Shown here: positions 28,702 through 41,921 of the stretch, piece after piece | How the letters are laid out: each line of letters begins with the position of its first letter | Position numbering within the stretch: position 1 is the stretch's first letter | NCBI GenBank assembly: GCA_040743155.1 | Contig: JBFLJU010000001.1 | Coordinates: 806,001-870,000 of the forward strand | Direction of reading: 5' to 3' | From: Cycloclasticus sp. | Lineage (GTDB): Bacteria > Pseudomonadota > Gammaproteobacteria > Methylococcales > Cycloclasticaceae | Length of the DNA: 64,000 bases | Program-made: the position numbers and the translations under genes | The notes under the pieces: generated by a model | The model's database searches: none | What the model saw: the letters and a program-made list of their open reading frames with translations, nothing else | Told to the model about the DNA's origin: nothing

Positions 28702-30321
28702 TTAAGAATTTGGTAACAGCTGTTGGATTTTTTTTAATAAGGCGTTTTTTTCCACTAGCGTGTTGTTTGCATTGCTGAGTTCTATTTTAAGAGCGTTCAG
28801 CTTTTCTTGTAATGCGGTAATTTCTTTTTCTGCCAGTTCTAAATCTTCGTCTGCTTTGGTTTTGTATGAATCGGAAAAGCGTTGCTGATAGGCAGTAAGT
28901 AACTGGTTGAGTGTTTTCTCGAATGCTTGCCGATCAAACTCGTCAGATGACGCTAACCCTTGAATGTGCTCAATAACGTCATAAAGGGGTTTATCGAATT
29001 GGCGTTGGAAACAATCCGATAACCGTTGATTCACAAAAAGTAAATCCTCTTCGGATCCGCTGAACTGTGAAAATAACTTTAGCGTGGTTGAGTCTAGGCT
29101 ACTTAAGCTTTGTCCATACTTTTCAAAATATACCTGTTCGAGAGTTGCGACGACTTCACGAATATCATCTTTAGGAAAAGAGTTTTGTTCTAAGTAATTA
29201 TAAAACTCACGTACAGACGAGGGTGTAATTTGGCTGCTTGGCTCGGGTTGCTCCTCTACTTGCTGGCTCTGGTACTGTTTGATAGTGTCACAAAAAGTGA
29301 TGGTTTCTTGTTCTGATAAACCACCACTGGATAATTCTTTAATGCAAAAGGCGGCGGCTTGTGCAAAATCAAGCGGGGGCGTAGGAGTCTGAGTAGTATG
29401 GTCTGTTTTTTTAGGCTCAAGGATGAATGTGTTTCTTGGGCTTTCTGATGGGGTTTCAATGCTAGCATTATCAAAGCCACCTTGTTGGCGCCAAAAGTCA
29501 CTGAATGAATCGATGGGGCTGCCATTGGTTTCCTCATCTAAACCTAAAGCTAGTTTTTTGAAACAAGCAGTGGCTTTGGAGTCGGGACTTAAAAGCACAG
29601 TGGGGCATTGGAGGCTAACGGATGAAATCATGGCTTCATCTACTTGGATATATCCTAAATATGAGATATCAACTTCAATGTATTTTTTGACGGCAGATTC
29701 GAATCGTTTATAAATGGATTGGCTATTGTCGAAATCCATTGCCATGTTAACTAAGATATATGATGTTCGATTGTAATTTGAGCGCTTTAAAACTTTGAGT
29801 AGTGAAAATGAATCAGTCAGAGACGTAGGTTCAGGTGTGATAATGATAATGGAAAACTGTGATGCTTTTATAAAATCTAAAACGTCATCAGCTATGCCGG
29901 CGGCGGTATCAATAATCAGATAATCAAATTCTTGCTGCAGCTTATCTAAAGCCGCCAACAAAATAGTTTTTTGCTCGTCTGATAGATGGGCATACTCTGC
30001 GATTCCTGTCGCACCGGGCACGATTTTTAAACCGCGAGGGCCATCAATAATGATGTCTTTTAAGCTTTTTTCACCTTTTAAAAGGTGTTGTAGCGTAAAT
30101 TTTGGTTGAATACCTAAGAGGATATTTATATTAGCTAAACTAGCGTCAGCATCAAACACGCAGACTTTTTTATTTAATGCTGCAAGAGAAAGGGCCAAGT
30201 TGGTTGCGGTGCTGGATTTACCAACGCCACCTTTACCACTGCTAATGGTAATGACCTTTGCTTTCGGTTTGTTCATTTTTTTAATACTTGTGTTACTGTA
30301 AGCTAATTCCATTAGACTCAT
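28702..30321 (-). CDS. MinD/ParA-type ATPase with long C-terminal coiled-coil extension
   Basis: A 539-residue protein. Residues 20-265 form a MinD/FlhG-like P-loop ATPase: deviant Walker A SSGKGGVGKSSTATNLALS, VFDADASLANINILLG and YLIIDTAAGIADDV. After a linker rich in Pro, Ser and Thr there is a 230-residue helical part with no family I recognise, ending in a coiled coil (about 480-535). No flagellar, chemotaxis or septum genes are near. A role in positioning a polar structure, for instance pili, is only a guess. A second ATG at codon 16 is an alternative start. Confidence 0.75.
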   Translation of the reverse strand: MSLMELAYSNTSIKKMNKPKAKVITISSGKGGVGKSSTATNLALSLAALNKKVCVFDADASLANINILLGIQPKFTLQHLLKGEKSLKDIIIDGPRGLKIVPGATGIAEYAHLSDEQKTILLAALDKLQQEFDYLIIDTAAGIADDVLDFIKASQFSIIIITPEPTSLTDSFSLLKVLKRSNYNRTSYILVNMAMDFDNSQSIYKRFESAVKKYIEVDISYLGYIQVDEAMISSVSLQCPTVLLSPDSKATACFKKLALGLDEETNGSPIDSFSDFWRQQGGFDNASIETPSESPRNTFILEPKKTDHTTQTPTPPLDFAQAAAFCIKELSSGGLSEQETITFCDTIKQYQSQQVEEQPEPSSQITPSSVREFYNYLEQNSFPKDDIREVVATLEQVYFEKYGQSLSSLDSTTLKLFSQFSGSEEDLLFVNQRLSDCFQRQFDKPLYDVIEHIQGLASSDEFDRQAFEKTLNQLLTAYQQRFSDSYKTKADEDLELAEKEITALQEKLNALKIELSNANNTLVEKNALLKKIQQLLPNS

Positions 30322-32494: not shown

Positions 32495-34792
32495 CTATTT
32501 GTCTTGTTTACAGATAAAGTCGAGGACTTTTTGTTGGCAATCGTCGCTATTCTCGTGCAAGATCCCGTGTCGACTGGAACTGATCCATTGGTAGGATAAT
32601 AATTGGCTGGGTATGCGCTTAATAAGTGTTGCCATGCTCATGGAATCAACGACAGGGTCATTATCGCCCTGAAGTAAAAAAACTGGGCAACGTAGCTTCT
32701 TTAATCGGACAGTCGTTTTATCAATTAATATCAATAGTTGGTTAATTGCTGCGACAGGGGTGCTGTGATAATTAATATGCGGGTGCTCGGGTGAGTTTTC
32801 TGTAAAGGGTAAAATGCCTTCAGACCCACTGATCTTTTTTATGATTTTATTTGCCGTATCGGCCACTTTCACGAATTGAATCAAAGGGTCTTTAAGCATA
32901 ATAGGCGTAGAGCACGCCGTTACCGATGAGATATTAAGGCGACTGTTTGCTGCGGTTATCAGTGCTAATAAACTACCGCTAGAGAAACCGATGAGGTGCA
33001 CTTGTTTGCTGTAACAGTGTGCTATTTTTATACTTTGGCGGACCGATTGACGCCAGTCTTGCCACGTTCTTTCGTGTAAATCCCAAGGCGATGTACCGTG
33101 TCCCTTGAGCCGGCAGCCAACAACGATGTAGCCTAGTTTGAAGAACTTCTCAGCTAATTCTCTAAGCTCGGCCGGAGTGGATAGCAGGCCGTGGATGAGT
33201 ACAATGCATTGGCCATTATTTTTTGTTGGCTTTAATAGGTAGGGGAGCGCGGCTTGTTCGTTAATGTGCTGTTGTTGGTTGATTTCTTGGTGCTTTGTGT
33301 CGGTAAATTGTGCAAGATCCCATTGATATTCAAGTAGTTCGTCTTCAAAGAGCATCTGTGCAAACTCATCTAATTGCTTCTTGAAATTAAAAGTTAGGCT
33401 GCGTTTGATGGATTGATTTATTTGAGGAATGGCCGAAACTTCATTGGCATTAACAACCATTGGGTTTTTATAACGAATACTGTCAAAGTCGTGTTCCGAT
33501 GATAGTTGCTCGGTAAAGTTATAGTAGGCTCCGGATGCTTCAAGTATGTTCGCCTTATAGGCACTTCTTAAAAACTGATTAAATGTTTCGCTTTTTGTCA
33601 TTAACAAATTACGATAAATAGAGGGGTTTTTAAGTGTTTTATGGAAACTTAACGAGCGATCTCCTTGTAATACCTTAATGGTGTGGTAAATCAGTTCATG
33701 CAGCTTTTTTTTGTTGACGTGAGTTTTTCCCTTATCAATGAAATGCATAATAAATGTAGCGGCAATATGAGCAATATTAATGGTGACATTGCTATAAATT
33801 GCATGCATATAATCATCGCGAATTTTATGTGCATTGCGCTGATAGCTGAGCCGAAACAATAAGTTACTCCATGTATTGTCATTTTCAGCTTTATTTAATA
33901 TTTGCTTCAGTGTTAAATCTGAATTTTTGATAAAAGCGGTTGTAATAGTGGACTCAAGCCGCGTCCAATAGTTTTCTGCAATGATGGGTTTGCCCAACCG
34001 GATATCCATATCGGTATCTTTAAATAAAAAATTACCTTCTATTAATAGCTCTTCAGATAAGCGCTTATGTAAGTTATCAACAAAGAATTGAACGCTGTTG
34101 TTGAGTGCGTTATCACCGATACGTAAGGGATAAAAGGTAATGTTGCATGGGATAATAACGGTGGGCTTCTCACAGGTTTCTAATAACTTCTGCTCGTTAT
34201 CAAAACCTAACTCTTGGGCCCATAAAGATAATATATCGCTGTTTTCTTGTTGCCTAATATCACGAACCGCTTGTTTGAAAATAGCAATGGCTAACGCGAT
34301 AACGGCTGGCCCAGTGTGTAATTTTCGGCGTTCATCGCCTGATCGTGAATAAATACGATAACGGCCTTTATCATCAAGGATTCGGCGGTCTTTTACTATG
34401 CCGCCCTCTGGAAAGGCGACCAGTTTTTGGTTTGATAAAACGCCTTTTGCCGTAAGGTACATAAGGGCGTCTGCATCGTTAGGTATGCCGCCTAGTTCTA
34501 TTAAATAACGCCCGAAAATATTATCAGAAAATAATTCTTTTGACGCTATCGATCTAGAATATAAGTTGGTTTTTTCGTAGATGAGATACTGTGGAATGAA
34601 TGCCTCAAAGCGAGCAAAGTGATTGAATAGAAAGATATCGCCCTCTAACCAAGATGATGTGTTTCCATGTGTCCGTATGGTAAGGCTGAAAACCTTGAAT
34701 AAGGTTTTCATTGCGTGATATGTCCAGTGGTAGGTGTCTGGATTTATCTCATATTGCTCAGGTTCGATTTTATTTTTTGAGTCGTTGCTCAT
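32495..34792 (-). CDS. Acyltransferase / alpha-beta hydrolase fusion protein
   Basis: The 765-residue protein has two parts. The N-terminal half resembles glycerol-phosphate acyltransferases of the PlsB/PlsC superfamily: FLFNHFARFEAF is the HxxxxD box with Glu in place of Asp (H58, E63), and VAFPEGGIVKDRR (about 127-139) matches the FPEG box. The last 230 residues are an alpha/beta hydrolase: oxyanion-region IHGLLSTP, nucleophile in IGFSSGS (S604), acid in QGDNDPVVD, and histidine in SSRHGILHEN (H742). It has no signal peptide. Divergent by 49 bases are a phosphopantetheinyl transferase and an acyl-AMP ligase with a carrier domain. Moving an acyl group from that carrier to an unknown acceptor, with the hydrolase editing or releasing, is inference. 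Confidence 0.75.
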   Translation of the reverse strand: MSNDSKNKIEPEQYEINPDTYHWTYHAMKTLFKVFSLTIRTHGNTSSWLEGDIFLFNHFARFEAFIPQYLIYEKTNLYSRSIASKELFSDNIFGRYLIELGGIPNDADALMYLTAKGVLSNQKLVAFPEGGIVKDRRILDDKGRYRIYSRSGDERRKLHTGPAVIALAIAIFKQAVRDIRQQENSDILSLWAQELGFDNEQKLLETCEKPTVIIPCNITFYPLRIGDNALNNSVQFFVDNLHKRLSEELLIEGNFLFKDTDMDIRLGKPIIAENYWTRLESTITTAFIKNSDLTLKQILNKAENDNTWSNLLFRLSYQRNAHKIRDDYMHAIYSNVTINIAHIAATFIMHFIDKGKTHVNKKKLHELIYHTIKVLQGDRSLSFHKTLKNPSIYRNLLMTKSETFNQFLRSAYKANILEASGAYYNFTEQLSSEHDFDSIRYKNPMVVNANEVSAIPQINQSIKRSLTFNFKKQLDEFAQMLFEDELLEYQWDLAQFTDTKHQEINQQQHINEQAALPYLLKPTKNNGQCIVLIHGLLSTPAELRELAEKFFKLGYIVVGCRLKGHGTSPWDLHERTWQDWRQSVRQSIKIAHCYSKQVHLIGFSSGSLLALITAANSRLNISSVTACSTPIMLKDPLIQFVKVADTANKIIKKISGSEGILPFTENSPEHPHINYHSTPVAAINQLLILIDKTTVRLKKLRCPVFLLQGDNDPVVDSMSMATLIKRIPSQLLSYQWISSSRHGILHENSDDCQQKVLDFICKQDK

Positions 34793-34841
34793 GCTCGTGT
34801 TTTAATTAAAATCTAAGCGTTTAAAAATATAGTAGTTCATT

Positions 34842-35582
34842 ATGGTGAGTTTTACTCAAAAAATTACACATCAAATACCGGGTTTAAAAAAGGGTGACGT
34901 TCATGTGTGGCGGCTTGCTTTAAACGGTTCAATAGGACAAGGTCAGCAAGCTATATTAAGTAGTAATGAAATTGACAAGATAAACCGGTTAAGAAACCAA
35001 CAACATAGAGCGCACGCTCTATTGATGAGGGTTCAGCTAAGGCAGTTACTATCGCGGTATTTAGACTTAAACTCCAACGAGATAAAGTTTTCATATCGAG
35101 AGTATGGAAAACCTTACCTTGCTGATGCTAGCTTGTCATTCAATGTCTCAGATTCAGGCTCGCAAGCGTTAGTGGCCGTGAGTTTGACTGATGAACTTGG
35201 TGTGGATATTGAAAATTGGCGGACTATGGCTAACTTAGCGGGCATGGTAAGACGAAATTTTTCCGCTAATGAGCAACAACAATGGTTAGATGTTCTTGAT
35301 AAGGATCAAGAAGCGACATTTTTTGATCTTTGGACGCGTAAAGAAGCCTTTATTAAAGCAACAGGAAGGGGGCTTGGAATGGGAGTGGCGCGTTGTGGGT
35401 TTAGTTTATTGAAGCCTAACGATCTGTTGGAATGCCCAGTTGAATACGGTAACCCATCTGAATGGTCGTGTGTATCGTTAGATGTAGGCGAGAGGGTGAG
35501 TGCATCCCTTGTTATTAGAGCGCAACATTGTCAACCAACTCTCTATACATTTGAGCCTGAAAATCTCCCCACAATTATCTAA
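34842..35582 (+). CDS. 4'-phosphopantetheinyl transferase, Sfp type
   Basis: A 246-residue enzyme. Magnesium and catalytic motifs are ELGVDIENWR (D122, E124) and FFDLWTRKEAFIKATGRGL (W164, K167, E168), with LSFNVSDSG earlier. Sfp-type enzymes move phosphopantetheine from CoA to carrier domains of polyketide, peptide or fatty-acid systems. The next gene ends in such a carrier domain 62 bases downstream, which is its most likely partner. It is about twice the length of AcpS, so a different activity from the housekeeping enzyme is expected. Confidence 0.9.
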   Translation: MVSFTQKITHQIPGLKKGDVHVWRLALNGSIGQGQQAILSSNEIDKINRLRNQQHRAHALLMRVQLRQLLSRYLDLNSNEIKFSYREYGKPYLADASLSFNVSDSGSQALVAVSLTDELGVDIENWRTMANLAGMVRRNFSANEQQQWLDVLDKDQEATFFDLWTRKEAFIKATGRGLGMGVARCGFSLLKPNDLLECPVEYGNPSEWSCVSLDVGERVSASLVIRAQHCQPTLYTFEPENLPTII

Positions 35583-35644
35583 TAGCGATAAACTACGCCC
35601 CAGTATTAAGTTTGTACATTATTTAAATAAATTTTTCCTACACC

Positions 35645-37606
35645 ATGAATGAATTCCCTAACACCCTTGTCGACGCGCTGGATAGAAATAAAGATGCCAG
35701 TAAAAAGATCACCTATATCAATGGCAAAGACAGTGAACGGCAGGTCAGCTATCCAGATTTAAGGCAACGTGCGTTAGGGTTGCTGCACCATATTCAGCAA
35801 AAGGGCGCGTCTGAGGGTGATGAGCTTATTATTCATTTAGCCGAAAATGAGCAATTTATCGATACATTTTGGGCTTGTCAGTACGGTGGTATCGTTGCTG
35901 TGCCACTGGCGATTGGAACGAGTGATGGCCATCGTCAGAAGGTTTTCAATGTTTTTGAGAAATTAGATACGCCCTACATTGCAACGTCAAGAAAGGCGCT
36001 ACAACGCTTAAAAGTCTTCGCTGAAGAACAGGGTAAAGAGTCTATTTACGATGAGATTCAACAAAAAGCAGTGATGCTTGATCGAATTGAAGAATTTGAT
36101 ACGTTGGGGGAAATCGCAAATATTGAGCCAGAACAGACCGCTTTTATACAGTTTTCCTCAGGTTCAACGGGTGATCCAAAAGGCGTTGTACTGACCCATA
36201 AAAATCTTATAACTAATTTGTATGGCATTATTGAATGCAGTGCATTTGACGAGAAGGATAGCTTTTTTAGTTGGATGCCGTTGACGCATGATTTGGGTAT
36301 TATTGGTTTTCACTTAACACCACTGTTTGTCAATATCGATCAATTTATGATGCCAACCGAATTATTTGTTCGGCGTCCAAGTCTTTGGCTTGAGAAAGCA
36401 AGCGAAAAGAAAGCGACGATTCTTTCGTCACCCAATTTTGGTTATAAGCATGTCTTAAAACGCTTTAAACCAGAAAGTCAACAAGCGCTTGACCTAAGCC
36501 ATGTTCGTTTGTTGTTTAATGGTGCGGAGCCTATTTCAGCTGATTTATGTAGAGAATTTAATGCCGTTATGGAACCGTTTGGGTTATCACCGACCGCTAT
36601 GTTTACCGTGTACGGTTTGGCAGAAGCTTGTCTTGTCGTTAGTTTTCCAGCACTGGCTCAACCGCTTTCAACGATACATGTTTTAAGGCACTCGTTGATT
36701 GAAGGGCAGCCAGGTGAGCTTGTTTCTCAAGCGACTAATCAAAGTGTTGAATTGGTTCGTTTGGGCTACGCTATCACTGGTACGGAGATGACGATTGTGG
36801 ATGCTAATGGCAAACCTGTCGCTGAGAACGTCATTGGTCGTGTGTTAATAAAAGGCGATAATGTGACGAAGGGTTATTACCATCAAACTGCTTTGAATAA
36901 AGAGCTAATTTCTGCGGATGGTTGGCTAAATACGGGGGATCAAGGCTTAATAAATGACGGGCAACTGGTTATCACAGGCAGAACCAAAGATTTGATTATC
37001 GTTAATGGTCAGAATTATTACGCACCGGACCTCGAATCAGTTTGTGAACATGTGGCCGGAATTGAGCTGGGTAAAGTGATTGTCTGCGGTTTTCGCAATG
37101 AGGATGAGGGGACTGACGAGTTAGTTGTTTTTGTCTTATACCGCGGTGAATTAGAGGATTTTTATCAAACAACCATTGACGTTAGGCGGCAATTGAATGA
37201 AAAATCTGGCTTGGACGTTGCGCATGTTTTACCGATTAAAAAGGTGCCTAAAACCACCAGTGGAAAGGTTCAGCGTTTTGCGTTGGCAGAACAATTCATG
37301 CAAGGTGATTTCAATGAAATTATTGCTGCGTTAACGGAGCTGTCCGAAACGAGCGCAACAGAATTTGTTGCTGCCGGTAGTTCGGTAGAAAGAACGTTAT
37401 TAGAAGTTTGTCATTCCGTAGTGGCTGATCAAAAAATCAATTTGAATGATAATATTTTTGAAATGGGAACGAGCTCATTAAAGCTCGCGCAAATACATGA
37501 AAAGATAGACGAGGCTTATCCGGATGTTGTTGAGCTAACCGACTTTTTTGACTATCCAACCATTGAAGAATTAGCTGGTTTTATTGCTAAAAGATTGAGC
37601 GCTTGA
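35645..37606 (+). CDS. Fatty acyl-AMP ligase with C-terminal acyl carrier domain
   Basis: The 653-residue protein is an adenylate-forming enzyme: P-loop IQFSSGSTGDPKGVVLTH (about 168-185), FFSWMPLTHDLGIIGFHL (a stretch typical of fatty acyl-AMP ligases), LNTGDQGLINDGQLVITGRTKDL in the hinge region, and the catalytic lysine in PKTTSGKVQR (near 540). The last 75 residues are a carrier domain with its serine in FEMGTSSLKLAQIH (S611). It should activate a fatty or other carboxylic acid as AMP ester and load it on its own phosphopantetheine arm. No polyketide synthase or peptide synthetase module follows, so the acceptor is unknown. Confidence 0.88.
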   Translation: MNEFPNTLVDALDRNKDASKKITYINGKDSERQVSYPDLRQRALGLLHHIQQKGASEGDELIIHLAENEQFIDTFWACQYGGIVAVPLAIGTSDGHRQKVFNVFEKLDTPYIATSRKALQRLKVFAEEQGKESIYDEIQQKAVMLDRIEEFDTLGEIANIEPEQTAFIQFSSGSTGDPKGVVLTHKNLITNLYGIIECSAFDEKDSFFSWMPLTHDLGIIGFHLTPLFVNIDQFMMPTELFVRRPSLWLEKASEKKATILSSPNFGYKHVLKRFKPESQQALDLSHVRLLFNGAEPISADLCREFNAVMEPFGLSPTAMFTVYGLAEACLVVSFPALAQPLSTIHVLRHSLIEGQPGELVSQATNQSVELVRLGYAITGTEMTIVDANGKPVAENVIGRVLIKGDNVTKGYYHQTALNKELISADGWLNTGDQGLINDGQLVITGRTKDLIIVNGQNYYAPDLESVCEHVAGIELGKVIVCGFRNEDEGTDELVVFVLYRGELEDFYQTTIDVRRQLNEKSGLDVAHVLPIKKVPKTTSGKVQRFALAEQFMQGDFNEIIAALTELSETSATEFVAAGSSVERTLLEVCHSVVADQKINLNDNIFEMGTSSLKLAQIHEKIDEAYPDVVELTDFFDYPTIEELAGFIAKRLSA

Positions 37607-37613
37607 TTAACCG

Positions 37614-38492
37614 TTAGTCGTAAATACCGCGTTTTCGTTTCCATTTACGGTTAGACCACATCCAGTCTTCAGGCGCGTCAAGTATCATCTTTTCAGTTGC
37701 TCTGGCATATTTCTCGGTGATACCGTAGCCCTCTTTTTCGTACGGGGCTTGACCTAGTTCTTCAAAATAAACTTCATAGTGACCTAAGCTTAAACGTTTC
37801 ATACCAACAAAAATAACGGGGTATTTAGTCAGTTGGGCAATTTTTTGTGCGCCAACCGCAAAAGCACTGTCTTGATTTAAAAATTGAGTCCAGTACTTCT
37901 CTTCTTTCCTTACCGGTGACTGATCGGCAACCATAGCAAAGCCACGTACTTCTTTTCGCCGTTGCATAATTTCAATTAAGGCGTTTTTATTCGCTATTGG
38001 TCGAGCATTGAAACGCGAACGAGAGATTTTCATGTGTTCATCAACAACACGGTCGTGTAAGGGCTTGTATACAACGTCGATAGGAAAGGAGAGTTGTAAG
38101 CTGCAACCGGCTAGCATCCATTCCCAGTTGCAATGGTGAGCGGCCAACATCAGAACGGATTGGTTGTTGCTAGCAAACTTTTCAAGAAGCTCAGGGTTTC
38201 TTAACGTGACGCGCTGACGAATTTGATTTTCCGTCAGTGTGCCTGTTTTGATTGCTTCGATTATTACATAAGCTAGGTGTTTGAAATTCAATTTAGCCAG
38301 TTGTTGAAGCTCTTCTTTCGACATCTTTGGGAAAGAATTTTGTAAGTTGGAAAAAATAACATTGCGCTTTTTTTCAACGAAATAATAACCAAGAATATAA
38401 ACGGGGTATGCGAGGGCGTGGAGCACGCAAAGAGGCAGTTTTCCTAATAATGGGTACAACCTTGAGATAAAAGCTTGCCTATTTTTGGCCAT
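37614..38492 (-). CDS. LpxL/HtrB-like lysophospholipid or lipid A acyltransferase
   Basis: A 292-residue member of the LpxL/LpxM superfamily. The active site HxxxxE is in MLAAHHCNWEWMLAG (about residues 113-127), with MVADQSPVRKEEKYW, TKYPVIFVGMKRL, and the C-terminal PEDWMWSNRKWKRKRG (lipid A acyltransferases end in WxHxRWK-like motifs). An N-terminal hydrophobic segment places it at the inner membrane. Its stop is 7 bases from the acyl-AMP ligase stop (convergent), suggesting but not proving a shared lipid pathway. It could equally be an ordinary secondary lipid A acyltransferase. Confidence 0.82.
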   Translation of the reverse strand: MAKNRQAFISRLYPLLGKLPLCVLHALAYPVYILGYYFVEKKRNVIFSNLQNSFPKMSKEELQQLAKLNFKHLAYVIIEAIKTGTLTENQIRQRVTLRNPELLEKFASNNQSVLMLAAHHCNWEWMLAGCSLQLSFPIDVVYKPLHDRVVDEHMKISRSRFNARPIANKNALIEIMQRRKEVRGFAMVADQSPVRKEEKYWTQFLNQDSAFAVGAQKIAQLTKYPVIFVGMKRLSLGHYEVYFEELGQAPYEKEGYGITEKYARATEKMILDAPEDWMWSNRKWKRKRGIYD

Positions 38493-41210: not shown

Positions 41211-41921
41211 ATGTCAAGTTATTGGCCGTTAAGGCTCTGCATGATGATGGCGCTGACCTTATTAGTTGCTTGCGCCGGTACGCCAAAAGTTGAAAAACCG
41301 ATATCAGACGGCATCAACACGGAAACACGCCAGCGAGTTGCAGTATGGAAACAGCTCATTGAGAATGGCACAAAATGGTCAGATATTCAGAAGTTAAATT
41401 CGGTCAACGACTTTGTAAATGAGGTTGAATTTGTTGATGATATTTACCATTGGAAAAAACAAGATTATTGGGCCACACCTTTGCAAACGTTAGTTAGCAA
41501 AGCAGGGGATTGTGAAGATTTGTCGATAGCAAAATATTTCACTTTGAAGGCCATGGGCCTAGAGGAAAATAAACTTCGTCTCACCTACGTTAAGGCCCTA
41601 AAAATAAACAAAGCGCATATGGTGGTGAGTTATTTTGCACGGCCGGGTGTTGAACCGTTGGTTCTCGATAATCTAAATAAAACGATTTTGCCAGCGTCAA
41701 AAAGATTAGATTTACTACCCGTTTATAGTTTTAACGTTGATGGTTTATGGCTAGCTAAACGTGGTGCAAACAGCCGATACACAGGGAGTTCAGAACGAAT
41801 GAGCTTGTGGCAAGGGTTGCTACGTAGCATGGACGTTGAAGCGTCAAATGAGGCTGCAATGATCTGCCTGTACCAGTATTATGATTTATCCGATGAAAAA
41901 GCAAAAACATTTTGCCCTTGA
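41211..41921 (+). CDS. Transglutaminase-like cysteine peptidase (LapG-like), lipoprotein
   Basis: The 236-residue protein has an N-terminal lipoprotein signal with lipobox LLVACAG. The core has the catalytic cysteine in KAGDCEDLSIAKYFTLKAMG, the histidine in INKAHMVVSYF, and the aspartate in LVLDNLNKTILP, the pattern of bacterial transglutaminase-like cysteine peptidases (BTLCP, including LapG). LapG releases a surface adhesin under c-di-GMP control, but no LapD or LapA is nearby, so that role is only possible. It begins 1 base after the dehydratase stop. Confidence 0.82.
   Translation: MSSYWPLRLCMMMALTLLVACAGTPKVEKPISDGINTETRQRVAVWKQLIENGTKWSDIQKLNSVNDFVNEVEFVDDIYHWKKQDYWATPLQTLVSKAGDCEDLSIAKYFTLKAMGLEENKLRLTYVKALKINKAHMVVSYFARPGVEPLVLDNLNKTILPASKRLDLLPVYSFNVDGLWLAKRGANSRYTGSSERMSLWQGLLRSMDVEASNEAAMICLYQYYDLSDEKAKTFCP

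Follow-up and report, generated by a model that had tools for sequence, protein, structure and literature searches.

Fatty acyl-AMP ligases (FAALs) are known for starting the assembly lines of polyketides and lipopeptides. In the natural-product didomains HapA, NocH and AmbG a FAAL is fused to its cognate carrier (PMC11837247), and these didomains start polyketide synthase (PKS) or nonribosomal peptide synthetase (NRPS) lines; an eLife study states that typical bacterial FAALs are always accompanied by PKS or PKS/NRPS genes (PMC8460268). We analysed a FAAL that is likewise fused to its own carrier, but next to which no PKS or NRPS was seen; what recurs beside it is a late acyltransferase. It is encoded in a window of 64,000 nucleotides (the whole stretch of DNA analysed), positions 806001-870000 of the 2.56-Mb genome of Cycloclasticus sp., a gammaproteobacterium of a genus with a marine, oil-degrading habit. 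On the strength of sequence comparisons, we lean towards reading the didomain and the adjacent LpxL-like gene as a two-gene acylation unit that would acylate a lipid, a precursor of lipid A being the likeliest acceptor.

The FAAL-carrier didomain and the adjacent LpxL-like gene

The first-pass annotation had grouped four genes into one lipid-like biosynthetic block: a fusion of an acyltransferase with a hydrolase, a phosphopantetheinyl transferase (PPTase), the FAAL-carrier didomain, and an LpxL-like acyltransferase. All four open reading frames (ORFs) are open throughout where it had placed them, and Pfam found the domains that it described, the acyltransferase half of the fusion by a weak match below the cut-off. 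The grouping itself had to be redrawn: the FAAL and the LpxL-like gene stay together, and the fusion and a dedicated PPTase drop out.

The didomain gene (35645..37606, plus strand) encodes 653 residues, with the fatty acyl-AMP ligase in residues 1 to about 560 and a C-terminal phosphopantetheine carrier. The protein matches the AMP-binding (PF00501) and PP-binding (PF00550) families of Pfam, with no match to AMP-binding_C (PF13193). Its top NCBIfam model is PRK09192 fatty acyl-AMP ligase, at 370 bits (under the model's cut-off of 600); with this model on top and PF13193 unmatched, the protein lies closer to FAAL models than to those of coenzyme A (CoA) ligases. The best solved relatives are the McyG adenylation-domain protein (6ulw), EcFAAL (3pbk) and a Legionella FAAL (3kxw), with FadD32 lower. 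The FAAL-specific insertion is present: the region following YGLAE, which corresponds to the insertion, is nearly colinear with 3pbk and 3kxw, with gaps of 1-2 residues, and is 21 residues longer than in McyG. The carrier domain (37373..37603, plus strand) spans residues 577-653, its start set by eye, with the PF00550 match at 593-647; the attachment serine, Ser611 in the motif GTSSL (37475-37477, plus strand), is invariant in 10 aligned rows. The FAAL would charge this carrier with a free fatty acid and need no CoA for it.

The LpxL-like late acyltransferase gene (37614..38492, minus strand, 292 residues) is convergent with the FAAL gene, with 7 bp between them. Its product matches PF03279 (Lip_A_acyltrans) at 110 bits, has the HX4(D/E) motif of the family as H119xxxxE124, and weakly matches the solved lipid A acyltransferase 5kn7. 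A second PF03279 gene is present in the genome, at 533 kb. Within the genus, FAAL orthologs were found in 17 of 18 genomes and the LpxL-like gene likewise in 17, some of them cut by contig ends. In the remaining genome, that of a sponge symbiont (G015; loci L072/L145), neither the FAAL nor the LpxL-like gene is found between the conserved flanks, and the PPTase and fusion genes are kept; this genome is a natural deletion for comparison. In one draft genome the LpxL-like gene (G003:C103:8342-9217) carries one in-frame stop, and either decay or a sequence error is possible.

Late acyltransferase and P450 genes at FAAL loci

A search of 369 gammaproteobacterial genomes listed 50 with matches to the FAAL, 26 of which we counted by eye as didomain orthologs (best piece at least 493 bits; some orthologs are split over contigs). 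A 2523-residue frame in G176 and 23 genomes at 325 bits or less were excluded. In a phylum-wide draw of 398 genomes, some of the same class, the matches were this genome and one 1938-residue frame. The DNA around 24 of the 26 class orthologs, together with that from three genomes of the same order, provided 27 FAAL loci from genomes other than Cycloclasticus, which belong to 17 families.

In 22 of these 27 loci a gene of a late acyltransferase family lies within 4 kb of the FAAL. Twenty are of the DUF374/LpxJ family, two are LpxL-like (L183 and L190, which represent two further families and have the gene in the same position as here), and no locus has both. The fraction becomes 22 of 23 when four loci affected by contig ends are dropped: L196, L197 and L198, in which the FAAL itself is cut, and L180, which ends 261 bp past the FAAL and has no P450 match in the 8 kb upstream of it. 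The pair of FAAL and late acyltransferase occurs in 14 families outside Cycloclasticus, or 15 gammaproteobacterial families with it. Sixty-eight control loci (1.09 Mb), taken around relatives of the fusion, contained no P450, DUF374, LpxL-like or PPTase genes, and the FAAL profile gave six weak AMP-ligase matches on them. Pfam names were verified for three P450, three DUF374 (PF04028 in all three) and two LpxL-like proteins. Since a late acyltransferase gene so regularly accompanies the FAAL family, the acceptor step probably falls to the LpxL-like gene, a possibility already raised from this DNA alone.

Matches to PKS or NRPS were absent from ten window proteins scanned and from 20 scanned of the 29 large ORFs at the FAAL loci (smaller ORFs lay outside the scan, and the 29 include some of the FAALs themselves). 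Fifteen of the 20 belong to other families, such as transporters, a helicase and kinases, and five had no match at E 1e-8. The usual FAAL context is thus not found here; the FAAL family is defined by the enzyme and not by its context. The earlier proposal that the chain probably passes straight to an acceptor enzyme agrees with this, and the loci differ from the always-with-PKS/NRPS statement of PMC8460268.

DUF374 proteins of Rickettsia were shown to be late acyltransferases of lipid A, named LpxJ, which take the place of LpxM (PMC6148475). We located the mutation-sensitive residues of LpxJ, by motif and with no alignment to R. typhi LpxJ, in 20 DUF374 proteins encoded at 18 of the FAAL loci. 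W60, H61, D132 and W172 are present in all 20, D173 in 19 and D86 in 18, the other two having Glu at the D86 position. The FAAL-linked LpxL-like proteins form one clade (support 99/97) with a copy from G325, which lies on a different contig from the FAAL of that genome; the clade stands apart from other PF03279 paralogs in a tree that used 22 of 25 rows, with long frames trimmed to their last 330 residues. At L189 the DUF374 gene is adjoined by a gene for a protein kinase with a caspase-like domain (L189:3307-5886), with a type VI secretion IcmF gene on the other side, and L191 has the same gene order.

A cytochrome P450 gene lies directly upstream of the FAAL in 18 of the 27 loci, on the same strand and with its match ending 18-157 bp away. 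Solved relatives of these proteins include P450 BM-3, P450 4B1, CYP3A4 and plant carotenoid hydroxylases. No P450 was found near the FAAL at 12 named Cycloclasticus loci. A P450 encoded elsewhere in the present genome was considered and set aside, PF00067 giving no match in a search whose control was detected in 7 of 14 genomes.

We built a tree of 29 FAALs, leaving out that of L144 (genome G025), which is split over two frames. On it, the type of acyltransferase partner changes at least three times, as forced by well-supported branches, and the presence of the P450 changes at least four times. The repeated change of partner suggests that two families of the same known role replace each other beside the FAAL. 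This bears on whether the didomain might scavenge fatty acids in general and pass them from its carrier to ordinary phospholipid synthesis, with an acyltransferase gene beside it by accident. AasS-type acyl-ACP synthetases do recycle exogenous fatty acids (PMC11271967); nevertheless, linkage in 22 of 27 loci and repeated exchange of the acyltransferase would not be expected of an incidental neighbour, and we regard such a scavenger as very improbable.

A scheme in which the didomain and the LpxL-like enzyme act as one acylation unit would run as follows. The cell's PPTase would convert the carrier to its holo form at Ser611, after which the FAAL domain would adenylate a free fatty acid and load it on that carrier, with CoA playing no part. 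The LpxL-like enzyme would then take the chain off the carrier and attach it in ester linkage to a lipid, most likely a precursor of lipid A; the PF03279 enzyme encoded at 533 kb would work alongside it. Where a P450 gene lies directly upstream, as in most of the related loci, its product would oxidise the chain ahead of the transfer step. Given the second PF03279 gene and the lack of a P450 match here, the chain that the LpxL-like enzyme adds may be an extra or a conditional one.

Several observations weigh against this scheme. The LpxL-like protein falls under every curated LpxL/LpxM cut-off listed, its best scores being 134 bits against a required 248 (PRK08419) and 100 against 298 (TIGR02207), and its gene, being convergent with that of the FAAL, shares no operon with it. 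Loss of the two genes in G015 may have been a single deletion. The profiles behind the locus counts were built from members at the FAAL loci themselves; the control loci gave no acyltransferase match with them. L142 has a P450 and a PPTase gene and no late acyltransferase match within its 18 kb. Conversely, five uncut loci (L143, L144, L184, L186 and L187) have the acyltransferase and no P450, and the chain may therefore differ between lineages. Loading, transfer, acceptor, chain type and the role of the P450 are all steps that we infer, the lipid A acceptor being argued from enzyme families. The LPLAT family also serves aminolipids (PMC11631085), and both the LpxL-like and the DUF374 enzymes may have acceptors besides lipid A. 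At L142, the sole uncut FAAL locus without a late acyltransferase, the gene directly downstream (L142:6917-8695) encodes a 593-residue protein with a GDSL lipase/acylhydrolase domain.

The same unit of FAAL and late acyltransferase might accordingly make something other than lipid A, either another acylated lipid, such as an aminolipid or glycolipid, or a small acylated metabolite. Such a product would fit the distance of the LpxL-like protein from the curated LpxL/LpxM models and its place in a clade of its own, and the second PF03279 gene can serve lipid A. However, the same slot is held by two non-orthologous families that both have known lipid A members, and clustering of the neighbourhoods of the 27 FAAL loci produced no further gene cluster present in more than four, the one found in four loci being unannotated. 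We consider a product other than lipid A a serious but rather unlikely alternative to a lipid A precursor.

The phosphopantetheinyl transferase and the acyltransferase-hydrolase fusion

The PPTase gene (34842..35582, plus strand, 246 residues) lies 62 bp upstream of the FAAL gene, and its product is of the Sfp/HetI type, with Pfam ACPS and AASDHPPT_N matches. Eleven of the 27 loci have a PPTase gene no more than 4 kb from the FAAL. The protein is the only PF01648 match of its genome, in a search whose control was detected in 10 of 14 genomes. No AcpS was found in this genome by TIGR00516, a model that detected 8 of 14 control genomes, so that its absence is not absolute. A single PF01648 match is likewise the case in 17 of the 18 genomes of the genus; the second match in the other (G001:C1:142786-142977) is the sole such case. 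The search behind these counts also turned up short frames of AcpS length (127 residues) in G023 and G029. A PPTase dedicated to secondary metabolism, as first proposed for this gene, would be a second one beside AcpS, and this candidate was rejected. Because it is the only PF01648 match and no AcpS was found, the PPTase is probably a housekeeping enzyme and the only one of the cell; it is also retained in G015, from which the FAAL is gone. Pseudomonas is known to have a single PPTase, of the Sfp type, which serves fatty acid synthesis as well.

The fusion gene (32495..34792, minus strand, 765 residues) is divergent from the PPTase gene, with 49 bp between them, and is a neighbour that probably lies outside the acylation unit. 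It joins a GPAT/PlsC-type acyltransferase to a hydrolase of the monoacylglycerol-lipase type. Its active sites are invariant in 20 aligned rows, the window's protein included: H58xxxxE63, FPEGG at 127-131, and S604/D712/H742. The C-terminal domain matches Hydrolase_4 (S33) and is nearest to Bacillus-type monoacylglycerol lipases both by sequence and by its AlphaFold model (mean pLDDT 82). The N-terminal domain has the HX4(D/E) and FPEG motifs and a PlsC/GPAT-type fold by weak matches: PF01553 at E 0.0044, below the cut-off, which the homologue at L024 passes, and, in a Foldseek search with its model (mean pLDDT 72), human GPAT1 first (E 7e-5, TM-score 0.42 by query), followed by PlsC, a plant GPAT and PatA at E above 0.001.

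Among the best 80 of 351 relatives, record titles name Gamma-, Beta- and Alphaproteobacteria, Acidobacteria and Nitrospinota, mostly as metagenome bins; the best fusion in named Cycloclasticus records is 79 percent identical to the window's. The 68 outside Cycloclasticus are the control set used above, many of them on short contigs. With marker profiles built from proteins at these same loci, an AMP-ligase-type gene was found within 3 kb of the fusion in 19 of the 68, and, anywhere in the locus, a thiolase in 10, a FadB-like gene in 10 and a FadE-like gene in 7; none of the four ligase and beta-oxidation markers occurred in 45. Seven of the 19 ligases are weak matches (155-163 bits) at Sedimenticola-type loci, and the one of these scanned is acetyl-CoA-synthetase-like. 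In L110 (9956-14071) and L135 (9941-14008) the acyltransferase, the hydrolase and an acyl-CoA synthetase with PF13193 form one polypeptide, of 1371 and 1355 residues, followed by thiolase, FadB-like and FadE-like matches. In G036 (C1:272544-274728) the fusion is covered by two matches in a row (26-396 and 404-760), from either a split gene or a frameshift. No paper on the fusion was found among open-licence papers. The fusion is a separate, widespread family with ties, at some of its loci, to acyl activation and beta-oxidation rather than to the FAAL. With its natural acyl-CoA synthetase fusions, it is a second, unassigned lipid enzyme.

Sixteen of the 18 genomes of the genus, this one counted, have the FAAL gene next to the fusion gene; in G013 the two lie on two separate contigs. 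Outside the genus, none of the 27 FAAL loci has a fusion. Among the 369 genomes the fusion occurs in 25, the didomain in 26 and both in three, two of which are Cycloclasticus (Fisher p = 0.40); without Cycloclasticus the figures are 23 and 24 of 367 genomes, with one shared against 1.5 expected (p = 1). A role for the fusion in the FAAL pathway, which the first-pass annotation had entertained, was rejected on these counts and on the 68 fusion loci free of P450, DUF374, LpxL-like and PPTase genes. The conservation check that it had suggested therefore separates the genes, the fusion not being conserved with the FAAL outside the genus and the FAAL being conserved with the acyltransferase. The fusion is probably a separate lipid-turnover enzyme that has become fixed beside the FAAL unit in this genus.

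The neighbourhood might still act in Cycloclasticus as an acyl-recycling box, in which the fusion lipase frees fatty acids, the FAAL re-activates them, and the fusion acyltransferase or the LpxL-like enzyme returns them. The divergent fusion/PPTase arrangement is kept in the genus, and the ligase neighbours, with the triple fusions of L110 and L135, tie acyl activation to the fusion enzyme. Three genomes of the same order (G018, G021 and G025, from two other families) also carry both FAAL and fusion. In these, however, the two genes are at different places, with a PPTase within 1.4 kb of the FAAL and the fusion elsewhere. The fusion-tied ligases scanned (L110, L135, L108 and L075) carry PF13193, unlike the FAAL, class-wide co-occurrence outside the genus is no better than chance, and G015 has the fusion without the FAAL. 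A recycling box thus appears improbable.

A tRNA scan of the window found none. Elsewhere in the window, 28702-30321 encodes a 539-residue ATPase with a GKGGVGKS motif, MinD/ParA-like by eye and with a long C-terminal extension, and 41211-41921 encodes a LapG-type cysteine protease (230 bits, curated cut-off 320) that adjoins a pterin dehydratase gene.

Comparison with known systems

It is tempting, if still tentative, to view the FAAL didomain, often with a P450, as a route by which fatty acids would reach the outer membrane without either type II fatty acid synthesis (FAS II) or CoA: the didomain would load free, possibly environmental or oxidised fatty acids on its private carrier, and an LpxL/LpxJ-family enzyme would move them to lipid A. 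Our searches of open-licence papers showed no link between a FAAL and LpxL or DUF374, and as far as they go, this would be the first FAAL pathway to serve lipopolysaccharide rather than a natural product. A FAAL family with a lipid A-type partner would link fatty-acid scavenging to envelope structure and could account for odd acyl chains in environmental lipid A. Hydrocarbon degraders would gain a route for environmental fatty acids into the outer membrane.

AcpXL is a special carrier, supplied by its own elongation enzymes, and LpxXL is a special lipid A acyltransferase. The AcpXL-LpxXL route for the very-long-chain fatty acids of rhizobial lipid A (PMC5613085, PMC11901934) likewise couples such a carrier with such an acyltransferase. 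The carrier described here, unlike AcpXL, would get its chains from a FAAL that draws on free fatty acids, in many cases accompanied by a P450. The FAAL-linked acyltransferases have their Pfam family and conserved active residues in common with LpxJ (DUF374) and with LpxL/LpxM; the known LpxJ and LpxL/LpxM enzymes use ordinary acyl-ACP. Aas, an acyl-ACP synthetase/lysophospholipid acyltransferase, also couples acyl activation with acyl transfer and does so in one polypeptide with a CoA-ligase-type domain, whereas here the ligase is of the FAAL type, has its own carrier and is separate from its LpxL/LpxJ-family transferase; Aas-type NCBIfam models score far below their cut-off. As for the neighbouring fusion, the monoacylglycerol lipase bMGL is among the best sequence matches of its C-terminal half and is the best structure match. 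The fusion differs from bMGL in joining the lipase to a GPAT/PlsC-type domain within 765 residues, and, in L110 and L135, to an acyl-CoA synthetase as well.

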